DNA of 20,821 nt from a virus. A program made the translations under genes and the position numbers. Below are positions 1 through 15,914 of this stretch, in pieces; position 1 is the stretch's first letter, and every line of letters begins with the position of its first letter. The notes beneath the pieces were generated by a model that did no database searches, was not told the DNA's origin, and saw only the letters and a list, made by a program, of their open reading frames with translations. The stretch lies in IMG/VR virus record IMGVR_UViG_3300028794_000021, positions 1 to 20,821 of that record. One strand, 5' to 3'.

Positions 1-144
1 GGTGTAGGATTCTTATTATATAATTTCAATAATCCATCTGATCCTATAAATGAATACACAATATTATCAGGAGGGGGTATTGAAATCACTATTCCAGGCT
101 TTGATGTACATTCTGGTGACAATTATTTCTATATTGAATCATAA
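1..144 (+). CDS. C-terminal end of an unidentified protein (partial)
   Basis: The frame is open from the first base and encodes 47 residues before TAA at 142-144. The residues include a Gly-rich turn (SGGG) followed by alternating hydrophobic and polar residues (IEITIPGF) and end in an aromatic-rich YFYIES. This suggests a beta-rich structural protein, but the fragment is too short to identify. It lies 12 bases before the next plus-strand gene, in line with the tail-gene run that follows. The start lies outside the window. Confidence 0.55.
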   Translation, partial: GVGFLLYNFNNPSDPINEYTILSGGGIEITIPGFDVHSGDNYFYIES

Positions 145-156
145 TCCTTAAATAAC

Positions 157-375
157 ATGTCTCGAAATAACCCTAATGATGTATTACTTTATAAAAGTGA
201 CTTCTCTGCAAATGCTTACACAAGCAAAGTTTTATCCGGATTAAGATACCGGTTAATCCGTGATAAAAATTTATTACTTATACCAGGGACTGATTATGTA
301 ACTTATGACATAGGCTTTACCCTTTCTTCCTTTACTATGGAAGATGATACTACCATTTCAATACAATTCTATTAA
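157..375 (+). CDS. 72-aa hypothetical protein in the tail-gene run
   Basis: A short ORF begins at ATG 157 after an A/T-rich leader (taaataac) with no Shine-Dalgarno, as is usual in Bacteroidota. It ends at TAA 373-375, one base before the ATG of the fibre gene, which suggests translational coupling. The protein is polar and predicted beta-rich, with a central RLIRDKNLLLIPG stretch and the C-terminal DDTTISIQFY. It has no signal peptide, membrane segment or motif that I recognise. From its position it may be a small tail or fibre-attachment protein, but nothing in the sequence proves that. Confidence 0.6.
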   Translation: MSRNNPNDVLLYKSDFSANAYTSKVLSGLRYRLIRDKNLLLIPGTDYVTYDIGFTLSSFTMEDDTTISIQFY

Positions 376-376
376 T

Positions 377-3300
377 ATGAAACAGTTATTTACATTAATA
401 CTAGCAGTTATAGGGTTATCAGCATTTAGTCAACCCATCTCTAATCGTTCCTCATCCTCTGTAACTATTTCGGATAGTAGACTAATGGCCGGTTTAAATT
501 TTTATCTGCCACGATTTTTAGATACTACTGCTGCTAATCTTCAGAAAGGAATTGATACTGCGGGTGCAGTAATTTTTACTTATACAGGTAATAAAGTATG
601 GAAACGTAATAGTAATCCTAAGCAATGGGAGGAAATTGGAAGTGGAGGAGGAAGTGGAACTGTAAGTTCTGGTACTCAATATAGAATAGGTGTTTATAAC
701 AGTACTGGAACAACTATTTCTCAAAATGTAGCTATTACAGGTAACAGGGCTTTGGTAAGTGATGCTAATGGGCTGCCAACAGCATCAAGCGTTACACCCA
801 TAGAATTAGCTTATTTAAGCGGCGTTACAAGTGGGTTACAAGCACAACTGAATGCTAAGGTAAATATTGGAAATTCTGATTTGACTTTGCCGACTGGGGC
901 GAGTAGGGTATTAAATCTAAATGGGGGTGATTTTTACTTTAATCAATCAAGTAATAATTTATTCAATTTTTCAAGTGATGGTTCTTTTAGAAAATATATA
1001 CCCTCTCTTGGTGAATCTTTTGCATTACTTGACAATAGTTCTGTTTCTATAAGGTCTACAAACTCTGCTGAAACATCTTTGCCTCAAAGGCTATATATAG
1101 GTCAAGGGGATGATATTACTTCATTCAGCGTTGAAAATTCTAACCTATTTGTTACAAATATGGATAGCGCTTATCATACGCAAGTATTGGTAAGGGATTC
1201 TGTTACAGGTAAGATAACAAGGGTCAATGCATCTGCAATAGATGGACAAAATTTTGCTAATACGGACTTAACATTTACAGGAAACAGAACTCATAATGGT
1301 AATGGATATGGCATGAACTTAAACGGCTTCGCGGGTATATTTACAAATTCTAATTTCACCGCAACTGGAGCTTATATTAAATCTATAAATGCAACTTCAT
1401 CGAATGCAGATAATTCAAACAGCTTTATAGCAGAGAATAATGATGGTATTGCCCCTACTTTCTTACTTAATAAAACCGATGGTGCTACAAATCTAAAAAG
1501 AAGTGGCTGGACTTCTTATGGTAATAATGTTCAATTGAGAACTTTTTCAGACGATTACTCTATCTCGTGGCCTATCATATCTGCGGACATTGCAAATAGA
1601 GCTTATGGCCCCGCATCGTCTATTGTTGATATTAATTCTTTTGGAAGTTCTGTAAACTCTTTACTGCGAATAGATTCTAATGGGGTTGGTATATCGGGGG
1701 CTGTTGCAGCTACAAGAATTGCTTACTTAAAAACAAGCAATTTAAGTGGGAATATTAGTCTCGAAATGCCTAATGCTCCAACTAAAACATTGGCAGTAAG
1801 CGTTAATGGTATTTATGCAAACAACAGTGGGAATATTATTATAAGCGCAGGTGGGGGAACGGTAACAAGTGTAGGAATAACTGGCAGTGACTTTTCGATA
1901 ACCAGTAGTCCGATAACAACAAGTGGCGATATAGGATTAACCCTTGCAACTGTAAATAGTAATGTGGGTTCATTTACCAATGCTAATATAACGGTAGACG
2001 CTAAGGGGCGTATAACAGCGGCGGCAAATGGTTCAGCAGGTGGTGTTACTTCTTTCAATGGGCGTTCAGGAACTGTTACACCACAATCAGGTGATTATAA
2101 TTCCATTACCGAACCTCTAACTAATAAAACGATAGTCGCAGGGAGCAATTCAATAACAGGTTTAACAAATACCAACCTTTCAGGAAGTGCGGGTATTACA
2201 AATGCTAATCTTGCAAATAGTGCTATTACTATAGCTACAAATAGTACATCTTTAGGCGGTACAGTTACTCAAGATCAAATAACTGGACTAGGATCAACTG
2301 GAATTGTTAAAAGAGCAGGAGCTAATACACTTGCAATCGCTACCTCATCTGATTACGTGGCACCAGCTACATTAAATGATAGTCTTAAGCAGTATTATAC
2401 AACCTTTTCGGGGCTATCGGATAGTTCGGGCGTTGTGTTTAGAACGCAAGGAAATTACAGGCATGATACGCTTAGGCTGAATATAGCTAATGCCTTAGGC
2501 TATACGCCCGAAAATGTAGCTAATAAAGCAACTTCATTTACTACACTGAATAATACTTTATATCCTACTACGCAGGCTGTAGCAACATATGTAACAGCAC
2601 AGATTAACACACTATTAACCGATACTGTGCCAACAAGAACGGGTGCAGTAGTGGCTTTTGATAGACCTTCTGTATATAATACTGTAGTATCCCCTGCAAC
2701 TGGAAATATAACCTTTGATACTTCGGGGGCTGTGACAAACACAGAGGTAGTGCTTTATCACAATTCGGGCAGCACTCCAACATTCCCTGCTACTGCGCAG
2801 GTGATGGGGGTTTATACAGTAGGAATAAACAATGAAATAAGATTCATATATAGAAGTGCCACAGAAGTAGATGTAACAATAAGTAATACCAATACAAGCG
2901 GGTATACACCTCCGTATTCTTTTGCGAACTTAACGAGTGACGTTAGTACTACTTCTGCGTCTGCTACTGCCGTAACAGGGTTTACTGTAAACTTACTTGC
3001 AAACAAAACATATAAGATTCATTCCAATTTTCATATAGGTTGTAATAACACTGGAGGAGTTAAGATTGGACTTTCATACAGCACTACAGCTACTCCGGGA
3101 ATAGATGTGCAAGGAAGGACATCATCTTCCTCTACATGGCAGCAAAGTAGGCTTACAGCTTCAACGGGATATAATGATGTAGGCAGTACTACTTATAATA
3201 CCTTCAATAATTCTAATGGTATAACTATTCTTGATGGTAAGATAATTGTTGGGGGCTCTAACTGTACATTAGGAGTGTACATAGCTAGCGGAACAGCTTC

Positions 3301-3424
3301 GCAAACCAGTACTATTTACGCAGATCAGAGTTATATAGAAGTAATGCAATTGAATGGCATTGGATGGGTGGTTGTTATTTTGTTCTGGTTCCCATTATCA
3401 CATAGAAAAAAACTTTTTGCATGA
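377..3424 (+). CDS. Tail-fibre-like protein with an N-terminal export signal
   Basis: This 1015-aa protein is built like a phage tail fibre. Low-complexity Gly/Ser/Thr/Asn repeats make up most of its length, with fibre phrases such as LAYLSGVTSGLQAQLNAK (about 150-170), GTVTSVGITGSDFSI (about 495-510) and TSFNGRSGTVTPQSGDY (about 558-575). A knob-like beta-rich C-terminal region begins near residue 850. It should bind the host surface. The start at 377 is preferred over an in-frame ATG at 344: 377 directly follows the previous stop and gives a typical signal peptide, MKQLFTLILAVIGLSAFSQ, with Gln at the likely +1 position, as is frequent for Bacteroidota signal peptidase I substrates. An export signal is odd for a fibre assembled in the cytoplasm. 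The last ~22 residues form a hydrophobic stretch followed by HRKK, resembling a membrane anchor. The stop overlaps the next start (ATGA). Confidence 0.85.
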   Translation: MKQLFTLILAVIGLSAFSQPISNRSSSSVTISDSRLMAGLNFYLPRFLDTTAANLQKGIDTAGAVIFTYTGNKVWKRNSNPKQWEEIGSGGGSGTVSSGTQYRIGVYNSTGTTISQNVAITGNRALVSDANGLPTASSVTPIELAYLSGVTSGLQAQLNAKVNIGNSDLTLPTGASRVLNLNGGDFYFNQSSNNLFNFSSDGSFRKYIPSLGESFALLDNSSVSIRSTNSAETSLPQRLYIGQGDDITSFSVENSNLFVTNMDSAYHTQVLVRDSVTGKITRVNASAIDGQNFANTDLTFTGNRTHNGNGYGMNLNGFAGIFTNSNFTATGAYIKSINATSSNADNSNSFIAENNDGIAPTFLLNKTDGATNLKRSGWTSYGNNVQLRTFSDDYSISWPIISADIANRAYGPASSIVDINSFGSSVNSLLRIDSNGVGISGAVAATRIAYLKTSNLSGNISLEMPNAPTKTLAVSVNGIYANNSGNIIISAGGGTVTSVGITGSDFSITSSPITTSGDIGLTLATVNSNVGSFTNANITVDAKGRITAAANGSAGGVTSFNGRSGTVTPQSGDYNSITEPLTNKTIVAGSNSITGLTNTNLSGSAGITNANLANSAITIATNSTSLGGTVTQDQITGLGSTGIVKRAGANTLAIATSSDYVAPATLNDSLKQYYTTFSGLSDSSGVVFRTQGNYRHDTLRLNIANALGYTPENVANKATSFTTLNNTLYPTTQAVATYVTAQINTLLTDTVPTRTGAVVAFDRPSVYNTVVSPATGNITFDTSGAVTNTEVVLYHNSGSTPTFPATAQVMGVYTVGINNEIRFIYRSATEVDVTISNTNTSGYTPPYSFANLTSDVSTTSASATAVTGFTVNLLANKTYKIHSNFHIGCNNTGGVKIGLSYSTTATPGIDVQGRTSSSSTWQQSRLTASTGYNDVGSTTYNTFNNSNGITILDGKIIVGGSNCTLGVYIASGTASQTSTIYADQSYIEVMQLNGIGWVVVILFWFPLSHRKKLFA

Positions 3425-4473
3425 AAAAGATAATATTATTAGTGTGCGTATGGTGTACGTTTTATGGAGTTATTAATTCGTATTCTCAACGTCCAAAGTC
3501 AGGGTTAATAGGAAACAGATACCACGTAACAGTGCCTGATAGCAATATATACGTTGTTATAATATTAGCACAAAGCAATGGGGTTGGCAGAGCGCAATCG
3601 GCACGTATTGCAAACCCGTATTACAACTATAAGGGTATTGCCACATACTATCCTGACACTTCTACAATAAGGGGCAGATATGTTACAAGACCCAATAATA
3701 CCTATATCTATTTCAAAGATCAATCAAAATCAGCTAATCATAATTTAGACAATGGGCAATGGCGATTAGATACTGCTGGTGTAAACAGTGCTACAGATAA
3801 TACAAGACCCGAATTTGGATTAGATATTCCGCTTGGTACATACATAAATGACAGTACTTCTAAGAAAGTGTTTTTCATCAAGGCTGCATGGGGAGACACG
3901 CGTTTAACAGATACTACAAGTTCTGATGCCACGGTTGGTACGTGGAATAATACCAACCGTAACCTCGCATCTTATTACTATATATCAAGAGGGATAAGAG
4001 ATTTAAGAACATTGTACCCAACAAAGAGAATTGTATTAGTTTCTATTATATGGTGGCAAGGGGAAGCTGATGCCAACCTACATGTCACAAAGAGTGCATA
4101 TAAGACAGCCTTTGTGAGCTTAAAATCATTTATAGAAACCAATCTTAAGCAGGACTTATGGGTAACTGGCAACACCCCTAACTGGCAGTTAGTAAAAATA
4201 AACTTCTATCAAACTGTTTATGAAACGTTAATTAGGGATGCTTTAACAGAACTTTCGGACGAACTTTACGATGTTGATTTAATTGACATTGATGCTTATC
4301 CGCAGAAGGAGGATTTAACAAACACGGTTGGTGTATTTGATGAAAGTTCTCCTTTAGCAAAAGGTTCGCCTATTAATGCCGATGGGGGGGATGATGACCG
4401 TCATCAAAGTTATATTGCACAATTTGCGGCGGCAGAAAAAATAGGGGCTAATATTAGAAGATTAATAAGATGA
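3421..4473 (+). CDS. SASA/SGNH-type carbohydrate O-acetylesterase with signal peptide
   Basis: This 350-aa protein matches the sialate O-acetylesterase-like (SASA, SGNH hydrolase) family, which removes acetyl groups from glycans. Visible blocks are the nucleophile region ILAQSNGVGRA (Ser52), the WWQGEAD block (residues 211-217) and a C-terminal DDDRH (324-328) supplying the Asp/His of the triad. A signal peptide (MKKIILLVCVWCTFYG...SYSQ) precedes the fold, with Gln after the likely cleavage site. The ATG overlaps the fibre stop by 4 bases, so the two are probably co-translated and work on the same surface polysaccharide. A run of seven G (4384-4390) lies directly before the codons for the catalytic Asp/His. 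The natural substrate cannot be told from sequence. Family assignment is firm; a virion role is inferred from context. Confidence 0.85.
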   Translation: MKKIILLVCVWCTFYGVINSYSQRPKSGLIGNRYHVTVPDSNIYVVIILAQSNGVGRAQSARIANPYYNYKGIATYYPDTSTIRGRYVTRPNNTYIYFKDQSKSANHNLDNGQWRLDTAGVNSATDNTRPEFGLDIPLGTYINDSTSKKVFFIKAAWGDTRLTDTTSSDATVGTWNNTNRNLASYYYISRGIRDLRTLYPTKRIVLVSIIWWQGEADANLHVTKSAYKTAFVSLKSFIETNLKQDLWVTGNTPNWQLVKINFYQTVYETLIRDALTELSDELYDVDLIDIDAYPQKEDLTNTVGVFDESSPLAKGSPINADGGDDDRHQSYIAQFAAAEKIGANIRRLIR

Positions 4474-4604
4474 AAAAATTAGTATTTATTATTATCCCAT
4501 TTTGGGCTTTTGGGCAAGCTTCGGTAACAGTAAAGAATACCGCTAATGTAATAAACTCTGTAACAGGAACAGCAGGCAGGCTAAGTGTAACTGGTGGTAT
4601 TTAA
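4470..4604 (+). CDS. 44-aa exported peptide, possibly a remnant of a second fibre gene
   Basis: An ATG at 4470 overlaps the esterase stop (ATGA), and the frame ends at TAA 4602-4604. The product begins MKKLVFIIIPFWAFGQ, a compact signal peptide with Gln at the likely +1 position. About 28 residues follow, containing SVTGTAGRLSVTGG, which resembles the opening repeats of phage fibre proteins. It is either a genuine short secreted peptide or the 5' remnant of a fibre gene whose body was lost. The tight ATGA coupling favours translation. The function is unknown. Confidence 0.55.
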   Translation: MKKLVFIIIPFWAFGQASVTVKNTANVINSVTGTAGRLSVTGGI

Positions 4605-4755: not shown

Positions 4756-5175
4756 ATGAATATCAGGTTTGCATGGATTTTAATTTTAATTATAGCCTAC
4801 AATATTGTAGGCTTAATTTATTTATACCCTTCCTGGGAAAGATGTCAGAATAGACAATATCTTGAATGGTATTGGTTCTATACTAAATCCAAAGACCCTA
4901 TTTGGTGTGGATTATGTGCCCTATTAATTAATCAATTTTCAATGTATTATCATAGATATAAATCAGAATTTAAAATACTGGGAATTATACTGGCAGTAAC
5001 TTCGTTTTGTTACGTGTTCAGGCTTTATTATAGCATTCCTGTAGATTGTACTTTTGACAATGATACTATTTATTATCTTATAGGTACTGTTACACTTATC
5101 CTTGGTATGATATTAGGAGAAATAATTTGGAAGTTTGCTAAACCTCTTCATGAAATTGTAATGAAGCGGGGGTAA
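4756..5175 (+). CDS. Four-helix integral membrane protein of unknown function
   Basis: The 139-aa protein has about four hydrophobic segments: residues 5-26 (WILILIIAYNIVGLIYL), about 46-65 (around CGLCALLINQF), about 74-90 (ILGIILAVTSFCYVF) and about 108-130 (YYLIGTVTLILGMILGEIIW). Aromatic residues are abundant in the first loop (YLEWYWFY). The start at ATG 4756 is chosen over an in-frame ATG at 4687 because 4687 lies inside the preceding 32-aa ORF and adds only a charged stretch before the first helix. Position before the lysis genes makes a holin or antiholin-like role possible, but four helices are more than classic holins have. A superinfection-exclusion membrane protein is another option. 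Confidence 0.65.
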   Translation: MNIRFAWILILIIAYNIVGLIYLYPSWERCQNRQYLEWYWFYTKSKDPIWCGLCALLINQFSMYYHRYKSEFKILGIILAVTSFCYVFRLYYSIPVDCTFDNDTIYYLIGTVTLILGMILGEIIWKFAKPLHEIVMKRG

Positions 5176-5558: not shown

Positions 5559-5833
5559 TGAATATGCCTGAAGACATTCAACCCAAATCTGTAGAAGTTA
5601 CTACTTCAAAAAGATTCACTATTGACTGGCGGGATGCCGGTAAAGGTTTAGTTATGGCTGTAATTGGGGCTGGACTTACAGCACTACAAAATAGTATAGA
5701 AACTGGACATATTAATTGGAAAGCAGTAGGAACTGTATCTCTAACAGCAGGGGTAGGTTATTTATTAAAAAACTTTTTTGAACCCCCCAAAACCGTAGTA
5801 ACTATTACTCCACCTGTAAAAGAGCTCTCTTGA
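5558..5833 (+). CDS. Second small holin-like membrane protein
   Basis: This 91-aa protein has a polar N-terminus with FTIDWRDAGKG, then two hydrophobic Gly/Ala-rich segments, GLVMAVIGAGLTALQNSI (about 30-47) and AVGTVSLTAGVGYLLKNFF (about 56-74), and a Pro/Thr/Val tail. I recall similar small proteins beside lysis genes in Bacteroidota phages, and the layout suits a holin. Whether this one or the preceding protein forms the lethal membrane hole, or the two act as holin and antiholin, cannot be decided. It overlaps the upstream gene by one base and the downstream gene by four (TTGA). Confidence 0.65.
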   Translation: MNMPEDIQPKSVEVTTSKRFTIDWRDAGKGLVMAVIGAGLTALQNSIETGHINWKAVGTVSLTAGVGYLLKNFFEPPKTVVTITPPVKELS

Positions 5834-6393
5834 AATATATAATTGTAATTTGCTTGATCCTTTGTAGTTGTAAAGCTGCAAAGGATTCTTCTGCTGTGGA
5901 GAGAGTGAGTGCTAATCGTTCTCTTCTCAATCAGGTTAAGCCTCTTATAGATAGCTTATGGCCATGTATTAACGATACTGCCAGGGAATTTATTAAAGGT
6001 AAAATAGATAGTATCCCCTATAATGTGTATGTACCGGTTTTAATTGATACCAGTGATCGCAAAAGGATTATTGATAGCATCAGTCTACAGCAGAAATCCT
6101 GTTCATCTGCTGTTGAAGAAGGGTACAATCAAGGGTTTAAAGCAGCCCAGAAAAAGTATAGCAGTATCAAAGTTCCAGTACCAACCCCTGATACAATTAG
6201 ATTAAAGATTATTGATAATCGTAAGCTGGATATTGCTAATGCAACCCTAAGTAATGTATTGAAACAAGCTGCTATCTCTCAATCTGCAGCAGATAAATAC
6301 AGAAAAGAACGAAATATATTGTTCTGGATTATACTTGTTCTTACCCTGGGAATTGGTATAGGATTATTCTTCAAGTTTAAACCTAAGTTGTGA
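5830..6393 (+). CDS. Putative unimolecular spanin (lipoprotein signal plus C-terminal membrane helix)
   Basis: The 187-aa protein starts at TTG 5830, overlapping the upstream stop (TTGA). This start is supported because the export signal MKYIIVICLILCSC begins right there. The signal ends in a lipobox-like L-C-S-C with Cys14 as likely lipidation site. A long polar, probably helical body follows (for example QSAADKYRKERN). Near the C-terminus is one clear membrane helix (FWIILVLTLGIGIGLFF, about 165-181) and a basic KFKPKL tail. An outer-membrane lipid anchor plus an inner-membrane C-terminal helix is the architecture of u-spanins such as phage T1 gp11, which fuse the inner and outer membranes in the last lysis step. 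Gene context with holin-like proteins and endolysin agrees. The assignment rests on topology, not homology. Confidence 0.6.
   Translation: MKYIIVICLILCSCKAAKDSSAVERVSANRSLLNQVKPLIDSLWPCINDTAREFIKGKIDSIPYNVYVPVLIDTSDRKRIIDSISLQQKSCSSAVEEGYNQGFKAAQKKYSSIKVPVPTPDTIRLKIIDNRKLDIANATLSNVLKQAAISQSAADKYRKERNILFWIILVLTLGIGIGLFFKFKPKL
6283..6296. repeat. 14-bp dispersed repeat TCTGCAGCAGATAA, copy 1
   Basis: This exact 14-mer recurs at 8115-8128 and 12675-12688. Its first 11 bases are a dyad: TCTGC, one base, GCAGA. Here it lies in the spanin gene and reads S-A-A-D-K. Confidence 0.7.
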
Positions 6394-6671
6394 AACTTAC
6401 ACAGATAGCTTCAGGATGGTTTAATTTCGTCCAATCCTCTCCTGAACACCAGCAGATGATTACCTACCGGTTAAGCCTATGTGATAAATGTGATGATAAG
6501 AAACAACTTAGCCCAATCGGAAAAAGGTTAATTCAGGCTATTAATGAACAAGCTTCTATCTTTTACTGTGGAATTTGCCATTGCCCTCTGGCCTCTAAAT
6601 CCTCATCACCAGCAGCTTCATGCCCAATGAATAAATGGGCTGCCTGGATAACACCTCAAACTTATTACTGA
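6390..6671 (+). CDS. 93-aa Cys-rich, probably zinc-binding protein in the lysis cassette
   Basis: The gene starts at GTG 6390, overlapping the spanin stop (GTGA). It encodes CDKCDDKK near residue 31 and a second cluster, FYCGICHCPLASK then ASCPMNKW (about 57-81). The CxxC plus CxxCxC plus C spacing suggests a zinc ribbon or short zinc knuckle. I recall similar small proteins ending in a CP..KW motif among phage genes, but no function. It lies between the putative spanin and the endolysin and ends by overlapping the endolysin ATG by one base (TGATG), so it is probably made with the lysis proteins. It is cytoplasmic by prediction. Confidence 0.7.
   Translation: MKLTQIASGWFNFVQSSPEHQQMITYRLSLCDKCDDKKQLSPIGKRLIQAINEQASIFYCGICHCPLASKSSSPAASCPMNKWAAWITPQTYY
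6447..6455. repeat. 9-bp dispersed motif CACCAGCAG (reverse complement CTGCTGGTG), copy 1
   Basis: This is one of six exact copies of a 9-mer; the others are at 6607, 9758, 13028, 13896 and 14113. Here the coding frame reads H-Q-Q. Confidence 0.6.
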
Positions 6672-7300
6672 TGCTTATTACCGCTGAAATTCTAAGAAAG
6701 ATATGCCATTCACTATTTGCTGCAAGAGCAGAAAAGATTGCTGAGTTAATTAATACAGTGTGTCCACGATATGGTGTAGACAGTAAAGATAAGCTGGAAG
6801 AATTTCTGGCCACTGTTTGCCATGAGTCTGGTGAGTTCTCTATCAAGAATGAGAACATGAATTATACTACTCCTCAGAGATTGATTGATATATGGCCATC
6901 ACGATTCGGTAAAGGTAAACTTGATCCTGCTGGATATATAAGGAATCCTGAGAAGTTAGCCAATGAAGTATATGCCAATCGTATGAGTAATGGTGGGCCA
7001 AGTAGTGGGGATGGTTTTAGATACCGTGGTGCAGGCTTTATTCAGATTACCGGTAAAGAAAGTTATCAGCGTTATGCAAAGTATAAGAATCTAACTGTAG
7101 AAGATGCAGCTCTAAAAGTAAGAACTGAAGATGAATATGCTTTGGATTCAGCCTGTTGGGAATTCTTTATTGATAAAGGGTTGATGGATGAATCTATAGA
7201 TGATGATTTCAGAAGAATTACTTATCGTATTAATGGTGGAGTAATTGGTTGGAATGATAGGGTACTTTACTACGAACGTTGTAAATTATTTTTGGTTTGA
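6671..7300 (+). CDS. Endolysin, glycoside hydrolase family 19 (chitinase/lysozyme fold)
   Basis: The 209-aa protein carries hallmarks of GH19-type phage endolysins: a helical N-terminus, VCHESGEFS with the likely catalytic acid Glu52, a second acidic position Glu61 in NENMNYT, the WPSRFG and NPEKLANEVYANRM blocks, and the substrate-cleft motif YRGAGFIQITG (118-128). It should cleave the peptidoglycan glycan strand. It has no signal peptide, so it depends on a holin for release. ATG 6671 was chosen over an upstream in-frame non-ATG start at 6635 because it overlaps the preceding stop and gives a full catalytic domain. It is the last plus-strand gene, and its final 31 bases overlap the end of an opposing HNH endonuclease gene. 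Confidence 0.9.
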   Translation: MLITAEILRKICHSLFAARAEKIAELINTVCPRYGVDSKDKLEEFLATVCHESGEFSIKNENMNYTTPQRLIDIWPSRFGKGKLDPAGYIRNPEKLANEVYANRMSNGGPSSGDGFRYRGAGFIQITGKESYQRYAKYKNLTVEDAALKVRTEDEYALDSACWEFFIDKGLMDESIDDDFRRITYRINGGVIGWNDRVLYYERCKLFLV

Positions 7301-11711: not shown

Positions 11712-14416
11712 TGTGTTTGGTTTGTCAGAGGTGTTCCCCTGTATATGAAATAATGCCGGATTGCCTCTTCCTGTTCAGCAGATAAAGGCTCAGCTTCTAT
11801 CAACGGTTGAACCATATTCATCAACTCTTTAACTGGTTGTGCCCAGTCTACAAGTTCCAAATATAGATCATAAAGCTCAGTATCAATAGCCTTACCATCA
11901 GCAATCTCAACTCCAGCTTGTGGATTGAATAATTCCAATGCAAGTTGAGAAATAGCATCTTTATCCTCAGGGTTAGCTTTAACGAATAATTGAAATTGCC
12001 CTACTTTATCCAGGTGAGAGATAAGTTTACCTGTAGTTGTATTATCAGCCCCAAGTATATTGGTACCAATAGTCATACTCCGCCAGTAAGCTGCAACATA
12101 CTCTTTTAACTTCTTATAATCTGCAGCTTTTTCTGCTGAGAGTGAGGAAAAACCATTTAGAAATTGTAGGTCGGTAAGCTTTTCCTGTAATAGCCGTGCA
12201 GTATTCCACCTGATTAATGCATTTGACATTGTGATGGTTTTGTTTCTGATTTCCTTAAAGAATTTTGTAACATGCTTGAAGTCTTTGCAGTACTTCACAT
12301 TGTTCTGTGCTACTTTGATAAGTCTTACTGGGGAATGTTCTCTAAAAGAATTGCATTTACCTAAATCTTGCCAATGAATGCCCGCGTATCCCTTAGCCCT
12401 TAAATCTTTAGCTTCTTCAGTATTATGAGAAAATAGACTGTAATAGCCAGAAGGTGAATCACTAAAACGGGTAATTAAAGAAATAGTATGCAGTAATGGT
12501 TCATAATCCTGGTTAGACCAAAATACTTCCTCATTTTTCCAAGTGTCCACAAGATGAATTGGAAATTCAACCTTCTGCATTTCATAAACCTTTTCAGGTA
12601 GATTCTTATTAGAAGATATTGTCCATTTAGTCCTTGGCGTATGAACAATAGTGCTACCGCTGGCTTTCCTTCTCTCTGCAGCAGATAATTCAGCTTCTTT
12701 TTTATCCTCAACTTCTACTTCCTCTTCTTCATCACTATCATTAGCTTTGAATCCTTCAGGAACTTCAATTGATTCATACCACATAATATCTTTAGAAGAA
12801 ATAATGTAGTTATGAAGATCTGCTATTTTCTGCCTTGCTTTAGCAAATTTTGCTGTAGTAGGGTCGCCAAATATAGCTTCTTCGATACGATTCTGATTGG
12901 TAATATCTTCTGCTGTGAGTGGACGATCAAAAGGCATTTCCTGGTGTAGATGGATAAGTACAAATCCCTGCTTATAAATTTGGGAAAGGATATACTTGTT
13001 CTTACGATTAGATATTTCTCCCTGCATCACCAGCAGAGGCTTTCCTTCAGTAAGGGCTGTACGCCAGCTCAATTGATACTCAACCTTTTTAGTGACCTTA
13101 GAACCTTTCCTTTCGGTAGTCATCTCAACCCTGTTAATCCTTACACCGTCCATGAGACGGTTATTGAACCTGAATTCAGGATTAACAGGATAGGCCAGTT
13201 CAATCTTACTCATGTCAACTATCTTGGAAAGCCTGCCTATTACGGTAGAATCCCCAGCAGAAGTCCATTTTTCAGAAGAGGCTGTAGAACAGATCTTTAA
13301 CCATTTCAGGAAATCAGTTTCACGAAGTTCTGCATTAATGGTAGCTTGTGCTATTTCAACTACTTCTCTGAACCTGTTCACGATAGTTTCCCGTGTCTTG
13401 TCAGTCCATAATAGACTTTCTCTGGATGGATTAATTTCAACGGATTCAGGATCCACTTTAATACCAATGTTACCAAGCTTTTCCTCAAGCTCTAATTCCT
13501 GGAAATTAATGAATCCGTAGTTCACACCATTGAGAAGCATGTGAGGTTTACTGTAAGATGAATTCTTTGAAAGAACAATCATATCGTCCTCATAAAGAAT
13601 ATCAGCCCTTACAGGAATTTCATTACGCTGCCCATTCTCATGTAGAAATAATCTTACATTTTTAAAGTAAAGTAATTGCCCAGTAACAGCATCCAGGTAT
13701 TGAGATTTATGATGCTTTTTGGCTGAGATCTCAATCTGCAGCATGTTTACTTCAGAAGTTTTCTTGTAGTAAGCTATATAACCATTTGAAAATTGATAGG
13801 TTGGATTTTCTACCATAAGCTCAGTATCGAGCTTAGGTATTAAACTTTCAACCTTATGGCTATACACGTTAAAACAGAATTCCATCCCGTTCCATCTGCT
13901 GGTGACGGTGTAGAAAGGCACTCCTATTGATAATGGACTCTTATTACCAAGTCCAAAACGGCCCAACATTACTTTATTCAAACGTTTTGAAGACCACCCT
14001 AATGAGAAGTACCCTTCAAGTCTGCTTCTACCAAGGCCTACCCCATAATCAGTAATAAGTACCTTGTCCTTACCCATTTCACCCCCATCAAAGTATTCTA
14101 CAATAACTTCATCTGCTGGTGATAGATAACTGGGATCGTAATAAGTTGGATCAAATCTGCTATCCTTGTAAATATCCCCTTCCTTTTGTATAAAGAAGTC
14201 TTCTACAGAAGATTCACCAGATAGGATCTTACGGGCCATTACCTTTTCAGTAATACTATCTAATCCATTAGATACAACCTCTCTGATTGTTGATTTAATT
14301 GGAAAACTGTACTGATACCGTTGCAGTACATCAAACATTAATTCCTTAGCCCCTTCATCTATCGTTTTCGAGTAACCTGCGGATATTTGTACGTTCTCCT
14401 CTGTATGAATCGCCAT
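11708..14416 (-). CDS. rIIA: rIIA-like protein with GHKL (HSP90-type) ATPase domain
   Basis: The 902-aa protein opens with a GHKL ATPase: N box REVVSNGLDS (45-54, Glu46 and Asn50), G1 box DYGVGLG (123-129) and G2 box GRFGLGNKS (152-160). The transducer-like middle region contains IKVDPESVEINPSRESLLWT. An acidic stretch (DSDEEEEVEVEDKKE, about 560-575) links it to a long helical C-terminal part. Size and order match rIIA homologues of T4-like and crAss-like phages, with rIIB directly downstream in a 4-base overlap. The ATP-binding residues appear intact, so the domain should bind ATP. The first 62 bases also encode the end of the upstream small gene in another frame. Confidence 0.85.
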   Translation of the reverse strand: MAIHTEENVQISAGYSKTIDEGAKELMFDVLQRYQYSFPIKSTIREVVSNGLDSITEKVMARKILSGESSVEDFFIQKEGDIYKDSRFDPTYYDPSYLSPADEVIVEYFDGGEMGKDKVLITDYGVGLGRSRLEGYFSLGWSSKRLNKVMLGRFGLGNKSPLSIGVPFYTVTSRWNGMEFCFNVYSHKVESLIPKLDTELMVENPTYQFSNGYIAYYKKTSEVNMLQIEISAKKHHKSQYLDAVTGQLLYFKNVRLFLHENGQRNEIPVRADILYEDDMIVLSKNSSYSKPHMLLNGVNYGFINFQELELEEKLGNIGIKVDPESVEINPSRESLLWTDKTRETIVNRFREVVEIAQATINAELRETDFLKWLKICSTASSEKWTSAGDSTVIGRLSKIVDMSKIELAYPVNPEFRFNNRLMDGVRINRVEMTTERKGSKVTKKVEYQLSWRTALTEGKPLLVMQGEISNRKNKYILSQIYKQGFVLIHLHQEMPFDRPLTAEDITNQNRIEEAIFGDPTTAKFAKARQKIADLHNYIISSKDIMWYESIEVPEGFKANDSDEEEEVEVEDKKEAELSAAERRKASGSTIVHTPRTKWTISSNKNLPEKVYEMQKVEFPIHLVDTWKNEEVFWSNQDYEPLLHTISLITRFSDSPSGYYSLFSHNTEEAKDLRAKGYAGIHWQDLGKCNSFREHSPVRLIKVAQNNVKYCKDFKHVTKFFKEIRNKTITMSNALIRWNTARLLQEKLTDLQFLNGFSSLSAEKAADYKKLKEYVAAYWRSMTIGTNILGADNTTTGKLISHLDKVGQFQLFVKANPEDKDAISQLALELFNPQAGVEIADGKAIDTELYDLYLELVDWAQPVKELMNMVQPLIEAEPLSAEQEEAIRHYFIYRGTPLTNQTQ
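12675..12688. repeat. 14-bp dispersed repeat TCTGCAGCAGATAA, copy 3
   Basis: This is the third identical copy, inside the rIIA gene (L-S-A-A-E), at the junction of its acidic stretch. A shortened version (TTCAGCAGATAA) is at 11774-11785. Confidence 0.7.
14113..14121. repeat. 9-bp dispersed motif CTGCTGGTG, copy in rIIA
   Basis: With its flanks this reads ATCTGCTGGTGATAG. The copies at 9758 and 13896 share ATCTGCTGGTGA, and the copy at 13028 shares TCTGCTGGTGAT. It differs from the E. coli Chi octamer GCTGGTGG only in the last base. That resemblance is suggestive, not evidence of function. Confidence 0.6.
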
Positions 14417-14642
14417 AAAGGATTTCTAAATTTTCATTAAAATATTTAATATCACACTCATACCTGGTAGTTTCTTTACCACCAAGCATGAATGTGATTA
14501 TCACTTCTTTGTTCTCAATGTTCACGGCTAACCTCTGCAGCTTACCTGTAACCTTGATGGAATGCACAGTCTCAAACTGCACCATCTTTCCTACTAACCC
14601 TCTTTCGAGCCGCTGCTCTATTTCCAGTCGGTTTAATTCCAT
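14355..14642 (-). CDS. Small hypothetical protein overlapping the rIIA start
   Basis: The frame encodes about 95 aa from ATG 14642 (MELNRLEIEQRLERG). ATG 14669 and ATG 14585 (MVQFETVHSIKVTG, preceded by AGGAAAG) are alternatives. The latter would cut the overlap with the upstream gene from 71 to 14 bases. The protein has a charged helix and then a beta-barrel-like stretch (VTGKLQRLAV, KEVIITFMLGGKETTRYE), ending basic. I recognise no family. Overlap at both ends (up to 71 bases upstream, 62 bases with rIIA) makes the exact limits uncertain. Confidence 0.55.
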   Translation of the reverse strand: MELNRLEIEQRLERGLVGKMVQFETVHSIKVTGKLQRLAVNIENKEVIITFMLGGKETTRYECDIKYFNENLEILYGDSYRGERTNIRRLLENDR

Positions 14643-14970
14643 TTTGTACAGTTTTAAGCCAATCTGCAACTTTAGTATAATAAAGAAGTTCTTTGAGGGC
14701 TAATGATGGTGCTTTACTGATAATCTCATTAGCATCGTTACCGTGTATTACAGAGAGAGAACTTATACCACACCCGCCAGGCCCAATTAAAAGCATGAAT
14801 CTATTTCCTCTTTCCCCCTCAGGTTCTATAGAAAGGCTAAAAAACTCCCATCTTAAACTGCAATGCCATCCAAGATTTTCATGTACAATAACTTTCCAGT
14901 TCCCAAAATGTAGAATAGCCTTAACTTTCTCAGCAGCAGACTTAGCTAAAGTTTCTGTCTTATAACTCAT
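14572..14970 (-). CDS. 132-aa hypothetical protein downstream of the primase
   Basis: The ATG at 14970 overlaps the primase stop by four bases (ATGA), a strong sign of a real, coupled gene. The protein starts with a helix (KTETLAKSAAEKVKAIL), continues with a Trp-rich beta region (GNWKVIVHENLGWHCSLRWEFF) and a Gly turn (IGPGGCGIS), then a helical section (SLALKELLYYTKVADWLK), and ends basic (RAAARKRVSRK). The basic tail could contact nucleic acid. I recognise no known family. Confidence 0.68.
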   Translation of the reverse strand: MSYKTETLAKSAAEKVKAILHFGNWKVIVHENLGWHCSLRWEFFSLSIEPEGERGNRFMLLIGPGGCGISSLSVIHGNDANEIISKAPSLALKELLYYTKVADWLKTVQNGIKPTGNRAAARKRVSRKDGAV

Positions 14971-15914
14971 ATAATTGTTTGAAGCAACTGTGAAGCTGCT
15001 GTCGGTGAATAATCTCTCGTAAAGTCTGAGATGTCTTTACAACCTGTAGATTCAGGTATATAAATTTTAGGATAAGGGTACCACTCTCCACGATGTTTCA
15101 TATCATTATCAAACAATACTACCTTCTTCTTATACTTACTGTCAGCCCAATTAAAGAATGATTCAGGCATAGGGGTATTCTCAGACCTGGGACTTACTGC
15201 ATCATATCCAAAAGATCTCAACGTCATTACATCTTTACGGCTCTTGGTAATTACCAAAGTATCAGTACTATAAGTGAGTTGTTCAATCCCATGAACATGA
15301 TGTTCCTGCAAGTCATGCCTGAATTTCTTACCCTTTTCCTTCTGTGGAAAATAGAGTTGGTATTTATCATATACCCTATAAACAAAAGAGAGCCCCATAG
15401 GAAATACGGGAACTCTCTGTGATGGGGTTAGCCAATAACAATATAAGGAAGATGTTTTGTACTGCTCAAGAATAGATTTAGAAATATTGAATTGATTCCA
15501 CCAGTTGAGATCTGCTGCTGTGAAGAGACGGGGGCGGATACGTATATCTGCATCACTTCTCATTACAGGTTTAGCCCTCACTACTTTACCTCTCTTCTCT
15601 ACGCCAGGCCCTAATCCAAAATCTGACATTATCCTACCTAATACCTCAGACCTGCTTGTATATCCAAACATCAGTTTAATGAGTTTGAATACATCGCCAC
15701 TGTCACCCATATTTCCGGAATCTTTCCACATGAATTCCCGGTTCAGCTTCTTACAGGGATACAATCCAAATGAAGGGGTTTCATCCCCTTCACGGATTGG
15801 TGAACTGTAGTTCAATCTTATCTCGGGTTCAAATTCCAAATAGTGACAGTACAAAGTGTATTCGTCAATGTGCTGCAGAAGAATATCTTCATCAGCAAGG
15901 AATCCTAATATCAT
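14967..15914 (-). CDS. DnaG-type primase (TOPRIM)
   Basis: The 315-aa protein resembles phage DnaG-like primases. The N-terminus has the short form of the primase core (YSSPIREGDETPSFGLY at about 36-52, then FMWKDSG...GDVFKLIKLMFG), without a C4 zinc ribbon. A TOPRIM domain follows (about 219-276), with LVITKSRKDVMTLRSFGYDAV and KVVLFDNDMKHRG, where Asp269 and Asp271 form the DxD. The Glu of the usual EGxxD motif is replaced, the equivalent stretch being Lys224-Ser-Arg-Lys-Asp228. GCKDISDF near the C-terminus matches the KDxSD signature seen after TOPRIM in phage primases. It would make RNA primers for the helicase encoded upstream. It is short compared with bacterial DnaG (about 580 aa) and has no helicase-binding domain. 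Confidence 0.8.
   Translation of the reverse strand: MILGFLADEDILLQHIDEYTLYCHYLEFEPEIRLNYSSPIREGDETPSFGLYPCKKLNREFMWKDSGNMGDSGDVFKLIKLMFGYTSRSEVLGRIMSDFGLGPGVEKRGKVVRAKPVMRSDADIRIRPRLFTAADLNWWNQFNISKSILEQYKTSSLYCYWLTPSQRVPVFPMGLSFVYRVYDKYQLYFPQKEKGKKFRHDLQEHHVHGIEQLTYSTDTLVITKSRKDVMTLRSFGYDAVSPRSENTPMPESFFNWADSKYKKKVVLFDNDMKHRGEWYPYPKIYIPESTGCKDISDFTRDYSPTAASQLLQTII

Follow-up and report, generated by a model that had tools for sequence, protein, structure and literature searches.

Virion assembly in tailed double-stranded DNA phages is taught as an entirely cytoplasmic process. The Q-rule is established for secreted proteins of the Bacteroidetes and holds for about 71 % of the phylum's signal peptidase I substrates, and glutaminyl cyclase is essential in Porphyromonas gingivalis (PMC10653852). 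Phages of P. gingivalis contain five Q-rule genes of unknown function which may modify the host outer membrane; as in the proteins described here, Gln follows the signal peptidase I site, but those genes, unlike the present ones, are not described as fibres (PMC10367356). The available part of a second report (PMC8776804) mentions signaling peptides on the lyases of phages Ingeline and Nekkels, notes that phage tails are where enzymes of this sort are usually located, and does not raise the question of export. The glycan biofilm-modifying enzyme WceF of Pantoea stewartii has a bacteriophage tailspike-like fold and is, according to the available part of its description (PMC7949094), a bacterial enzyme, representing the opposite direction of exchange to that of a phage cassette. 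A literature search, for which most subscription journals were out of reach, returned no description of exported tailed-phage fibres. Such signals were mentioned only in passing (PMC8776804, PMC10367356), and "little-described export module", the term used in the original prediction for the cassette considered below, is a fair description.

The DNA analysed (the window) is a 20,821-base IMG/VR virus fragment with late genes on the plus strand and replication genes on the minus strand, in which the cassette lies between the tail genes and the lysis genes. All features below are on the plus strand. The window opens within a conserved tail-region protein without a signal, of which it contains the C-terminal end (1..144); this is 62-69 % identical to the product of the gene immediately upstream of the signal-bearing fibre in contigs L146/L149 and L145. 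A 72-amino acid ORF, also without a signal, follows at 157..375, where a small pre-fibre gene would sit, and Pfam, PHROG and clade comparison gave no homologue of it. The cassette consists of a 1015-amino acid fibre-like protein (377..3424) and a 350-amino acid SASA-like carbohydrate O-acetylesterase (3421..4473), both with Gln-type signal peptides, and a 44-amino acid signal-bearing peptide (4470..4604). The lysis region begins with a small membrane protein, holin-like by position and hydrophobicity (4756..5175), and contains a unimolecular-spanin-like lipoprotein with a C-terminal transmembrane segment (5830..6393; 49 % identical to its L043 homologue) and a GH19 chitinase-type endolysin (6635..7300; phrog_181, 6.9e-51). 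Spanin-like lipoproteins of this form, diverged in sequence, were seen in the window (5830-6393), L043 (17632-18300) and L046 (18767-19318).

The three cassette ORFs were verified, with an ATGA overlap at both junctions (3421 and 4470). Signal prediction throughout used our own rule-based script, not SignalP. The predicted signal peptides are MKQLFTLILAVIGLSAFS in the fibre (377..430, cut before Gln19), MKKIILLVCVWCTFYGVINSYS in the esterase (3421..3486, cut before Gln23) and MKKLVFIIIPFWAFG, again cut before Gln, in the 44-amino acid peptide; in the window proteins a basic n-region, a hydrophobic core and a small-x-small site are followed by Gln, as in Sec and signal peptidase I substrates that obey the Q-rule. 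The rule was positive for 12 of 6460 shuffled N-termini (0.19 %) and for none of 1753 internal Met starts, compared with 30 of the 446 distinct large genes of these phages (Fisher p about 4e-27 against the controls). The original prediction, that three ATGA-joined genes each encode a signal with Gln after the cut, was thus confirmed by rule-based prediction with shuffled and internal-Met controls. The objection that the starts were mis-called was tested and failed. The esterase and the 44-amino acid peptide contain no second Met, which leaves no ATG further on to which their starts could be shifted, and the fibre start at 377 and the Gln after its cut are kept in relatives; the signals are therefore not mis-called starts. 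No T9SS C-terminal sorting domain was found by Pfam or NCBIfam in the window or in the sampled Cellulophaga proteins, and the predicted destination is therefore the periplasm. The O-glycosylation motif D(S/T)(A/I/L/V/M/T) was depleted rather than enriched in 27 signal-bearing late proteins (0.46x) and was also low in 26 signal-less proteins (0.61x); the window fibre has 7 against 4.1 expected, which is not significant.

The window fibre has no family match in Pfam, PHROG or NCBIfam. It is called a fibre because of its position, its repeat-rich body, as found in phage fibres, and its 59 % identity across 68 amino acids, a weak homology, to the tail fibre of a Pelagibacter phage. As expected of a tailed-phage fibre, its gene is late and lies between the tail and the lysis functions, and it has homology, although weak, to a known fibre. 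Its hydrophobic C-terminal tail, read from the sequence (GIGWVVVILFWFPLSHRKKLFA, 3355..3424), may be an anchor or an extension produced by the gene overlap. This C-terminus (GIGWVVVILFWFPLSHRKK) is hydrophobic with a basic end and resembles a membrane anchor, a feature not seen among the other printed signal-bearing fibre C-termini (L002-L026), and a PDB search with it gave a chance match only. The esterase contains the motifs AQSN (Ser52), WWQGEAD and DDRH (His328), corresponding to the AQSN, WWQGEAD and DxxH-type motifs of the SASA sialate O-acetylesterases (PF03629). Unlike the curated members of that family it is phage-encoded, and its score is just under the gathering cut-off (24.3 bits against 24.8, E 2.8e-5); the match to the sialic acid acetylesterase 8f9q in the PDB was weak (E 0.0095), and structure prediction from the single sequence was unusable (pLDDT 35). 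The mature 44-amino acid peptide is QASVTVKNTANVINSVTGTAGRLSVTGGI. Its slot is occupied in L145 by a 26-amino acid mini-gene, MRFILTILLFPIMLNA followed by QDTTYAEQHK, and a 26-amino acid ORF (MKKILFLLLLLCTVQFYGQTSTGQEQ) that precedes the fibre gene of L053 resembles the truncated start of another signal fibre. The 44-amino acid gene may encode a mini-protein or, given the truncated-looking L053 ORF, may be the leftover start of a replaced fibre gene. Very short signal ORFs were observed at the cassette ends of both L145 (4354-4434) and the window (4470-4604), with mature lengths of 10 and 29 residues, and may be remnants or secreted peptides.

Direct searches of phages and viral contigs with the fibre and the esterase gave almost no matches, and relatives were reached instead through the endolysin, RIIA, the portal-like protein and the upstream tail gene, the RIIA search yielding relatives at 62-82 % identity. 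L145 is the rest of the L043 contig, and L146 and L149 belong to the L046 contig. The order of conserved tail gene followed by a fibre with a signal and the mature pattern QP..S..S.T..... was found in four phages (the window, L145, L149 and L152), in all of which Gln-Pro opens the mature fibre. The cut regions are SAFS followed by QPISNRSSSSVTI in the window, SAFA followed by QPVKETSPTSIT in L145, SAFA followed by QPVRETSPSSIT in L149 and SAAA followed by QPVRETSPQSVT in L152. A domain of about 75 amino acids after the signal is common to the fibres of the window, L145, L146 and L152, and over its approximately 90 N-terminal residues the window fibre shares 31-33 % identity with the fibres of L145 and L146, while the remaining cassette content differs; L145 has five consecutive Gln-type signal genes plus the 26-amino acid one. 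In a comparison of L146 with L152, identity is 47 % across the signal and rises to 90 % over the 30 residues that follow it. Judged from these alignments, the clade signal appears to conserve chemistry rather than letters, as a generic cleavable signal would. Other features of these contigs were recorded. L043 encodes an NHL-repeat protein with a Gln-type signal (18957-21947), the homologue of which (30 %) in the unclassified podovirus record MW202691.1 (L131) was read as an ORF without a signal. In L046 the RIIB homologue (12849-15152) is matched by tblastn as two separate pieces, 12849-13403 and 14547-15152, with about 1.1 kb between them, and looks interrupted by an insertion.

Endolysin and portal-like queries also retrieved about 110 Flavobacterium-type phage contigs and one Flavobacterium genome contig, among which the comparison concerned one slot, located about 1.05 kb downstream of the portal-like gene. 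An unsplit, signal-less fibre of 314-804 amino acids with an N-terminus of the MANKKLTxLxxxT type occupies the slot in 26 phages. In 15 others a short signal-less gene with the same type of N-terminus (108-219 amino acids) is followed, often through an ATGA junction, by a large fibre with a Gln-type signal. The two groups differ (Mann-Whitney p 1.4e-7), the phages being related so that the p value overstates independence and is indicative only, and a few split pairs without a signal (L060, L049 and L081) are exceptions. Signal-bearing fibres, for which the original prediction had proposed a search in related phages, were found in L145, L149, L152 and these 15 split-fibre phages. Residues 162-498 of the signal-less fibre of phage 11b are 36 % identical to residues 68-409 of the L014 signal fibre, and in a second family L082 (signal) and L081 (no signal) are 45 % identical across 548 residues; signals and other N-termini are thus alternatives on the same fibre bodies. 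Phages 11b, hemulen9-1 and FL-1 and contigs L058, L067 and L060 have fibres, split or whole, in the same slot and of the same body kinds as the signal fibres, but with a canonical N-terminal domain and no export signal. This second signal family, with the mature start Q(Y/S)(N/G)L(F/I)(A/V)RQNF, was noted after the first signal fibre (L014 2515-3357, L076 11038, L082 7452 and L093 12463), its L082 member being the protein 45 % identical to that of L081.

As in the window, late genes with Gln-type signals also occur in runs, ahead of the lysis functions or close to them, in the Cellulophaga phages phi10:1, phi19:1, Nekkels, Ingeline, phi13:2, phi46:3, phi39:1 and phiSM. Their proteins are unrelated in sequence to those of the window, and lyases are encoded there where the window has an O-acetylesterase. 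In phi19:1, gp101-104 are four consecutive genes with signals, Gln-type in three of them, and all four products are annotated as MS/MS-detected. In phi10:1, gp91-95 carry Gln-type signals that differ among themselves and gp91-94 are so annotated, as is gp90, a signal-less base gene of 116 amino acids. Virion MS/MS annotation is likewise given for phi39:1 gp25-26 plus gp24 and for phiSM gp08, and the annotated signal proteins of these four phages comprise fibres and pectate lyase. The lysozyme and replication proteins in the same records have no such note. This evidence consists of GenBank notes ("based on experimental MS/MS proteomics analysis"), not peptide lists, and carry-over of soluble lysate proteins is possible. 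Similar cassettes are present in phi13:2, phi46:3, Nekkels and Ingeline (Assiduviridae, Pachyviridae and Duneviridae in the records). The signal-bearing pectate lyase of phi19:1 is 44-49 % identical to the lyases of phi14:2, phi17:2 and phi4:1, and related lyase domains in phi14:2 (Crassvirales), phi17:2 and phiST have a different N-terminus and no signal. No signal was present on the fibre-region genes read in phi12:1, hemulen9-1 and FL-1. Bacteroides phage B40-8 and Riemerella phage RAP44 have no fibre with a Gln-type signal, and the trait is therefore not universal. A likeness by eye between the window fibre and the Cellulophaga post-signal domain was dropped, as a profile built from that domain of the MS-detected fibres missed the window fibre and shuffled sequences scored better.

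The best explanation of the cassette is that it encodes the distal, surface-reading part of an adhesion apparatus. This part would consist of a fibre and a glycan O-acetylesterase, both synthesised as Sec pre-proteins of the usual kind in a Bacteroidota host. We consider it probable that the products, distal fibres and depolymerases, are exported by Sec and become attached to virions when the cell lyses or afterwards. Taken together, the forced starts, the conserved site and the detection in virions argue for proteins that are exported yet end on particles. Joining of the virion outside the cytoplasm is the best supported of the three options first offered, with signal proteins annotated from MS/MS in phi10:1, phi19:1, phi39:1 and phiSM. 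The same annotations weaken another option, that the proteins are secreted during infection and are not virion parts, stripping or masking surface glycans in the periplasm or outside and so blocking superinfection or freeing progeny from debris. The clear signals, the glycan esterase and the lyases and SGNH hydrolases of relatives would suit such a role, and the window is linked to virions by analogy. Nevertheless, four Cellulophaga phages have signal proteins of the same kind recorded as parts of the virion, whereas their lysozyme and replication proteins are not so recorded, and the signal fibre fills the slot of the only large fibre in the split phages, which makes a purely secreted role unlikely. 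Still less probable is a hydrophobic N-terminus retained, with no export, as a helix for docking of the fibre in its base: the signal is located where signal-less fibres have their docking domain, but all examples show the basic start, hydrophobic core and small-x-small site followed by Gln, the signals of phi10:1 gp91-95 are mutually different, and that of L146 and L152 drifts faster than the adjacent domain. The third option, recent capture of host secreted genes with signals retained and no special phage role, is very improbable, since although the signals follow the host Q-rule (PMC10653852) and a bacterial secreted enzyme with a tailspike fold is known (available part of PMC7949094), the signals sit on phage fibre bodies that have phage homologues with other, signal-less N-termini, their position is conserved across phages, and a search of 395 genomes from the class to which a Flavobacterium belongs, run without a positive control, gave no esterase match at E<=1e-6.

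Export of distal fibres and depolymerases would proceed as follows. The coupled genes would be translated late in infection and their products exported by the host Sec system, with signal peptidase I cutting before Gln and the host glutaminyl cyclase converting it to pyroglutamate. The periplasm would be where the fibre and esterase fold; capsids and tails, complete with a signal-less base, would meanwhile be put together in the cytoplasm. Once the endolysin and spanin open the envelope, the exported fibres and enzymes would meet the virions and dock on the base, the signal replacing or bypassing the N-terminal domain by which fibres usually dock on virions. P22 tailspikes and T4 long fibres attach in the final step and can be joined to particles in vitro, which makes late docking chemically plausible. 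Export combined with virion association is well supported for this kind of protein, actual export being an inference; cleavage, pyroglutamate formation and the route onto the virion at lysis would follow as described, and the window proteins would by analogy behave like those of the Cellulophaga phages. At the sequence level the reading is supported by the predicted signals, the conserved starts, the cassette position, the split of base and signal fibre, and the N-terminus swaps. Against it, the window fibre shows no full-length homology to the MS-detected proteins, and the hydrophobic C-terminal end of the fibre could act as an inner-membrane anchor.

A finished phage part thus seems to be exported from the cytoplasm and to be added to the particle outside it. 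We lean slightly towards a broad class of tailed phages of Bacteroidota, spanning several families, in which the fibre is split, the base is packaged, and distal fibres and depolymerases pass through Sec with a Q-rule signal and are added as the envelope opens. If true, the last assembly step would shift to the periplasm or lysate, assembly would depend on the host Sec system, signal peptidase and glutaminyl cyclase, and virions meeting in one lysate could swap receptor-binding parts. A Gln-type signal on a late gene would then be a marker for the host-recognition genes of uncultured Bacteroidota phages.
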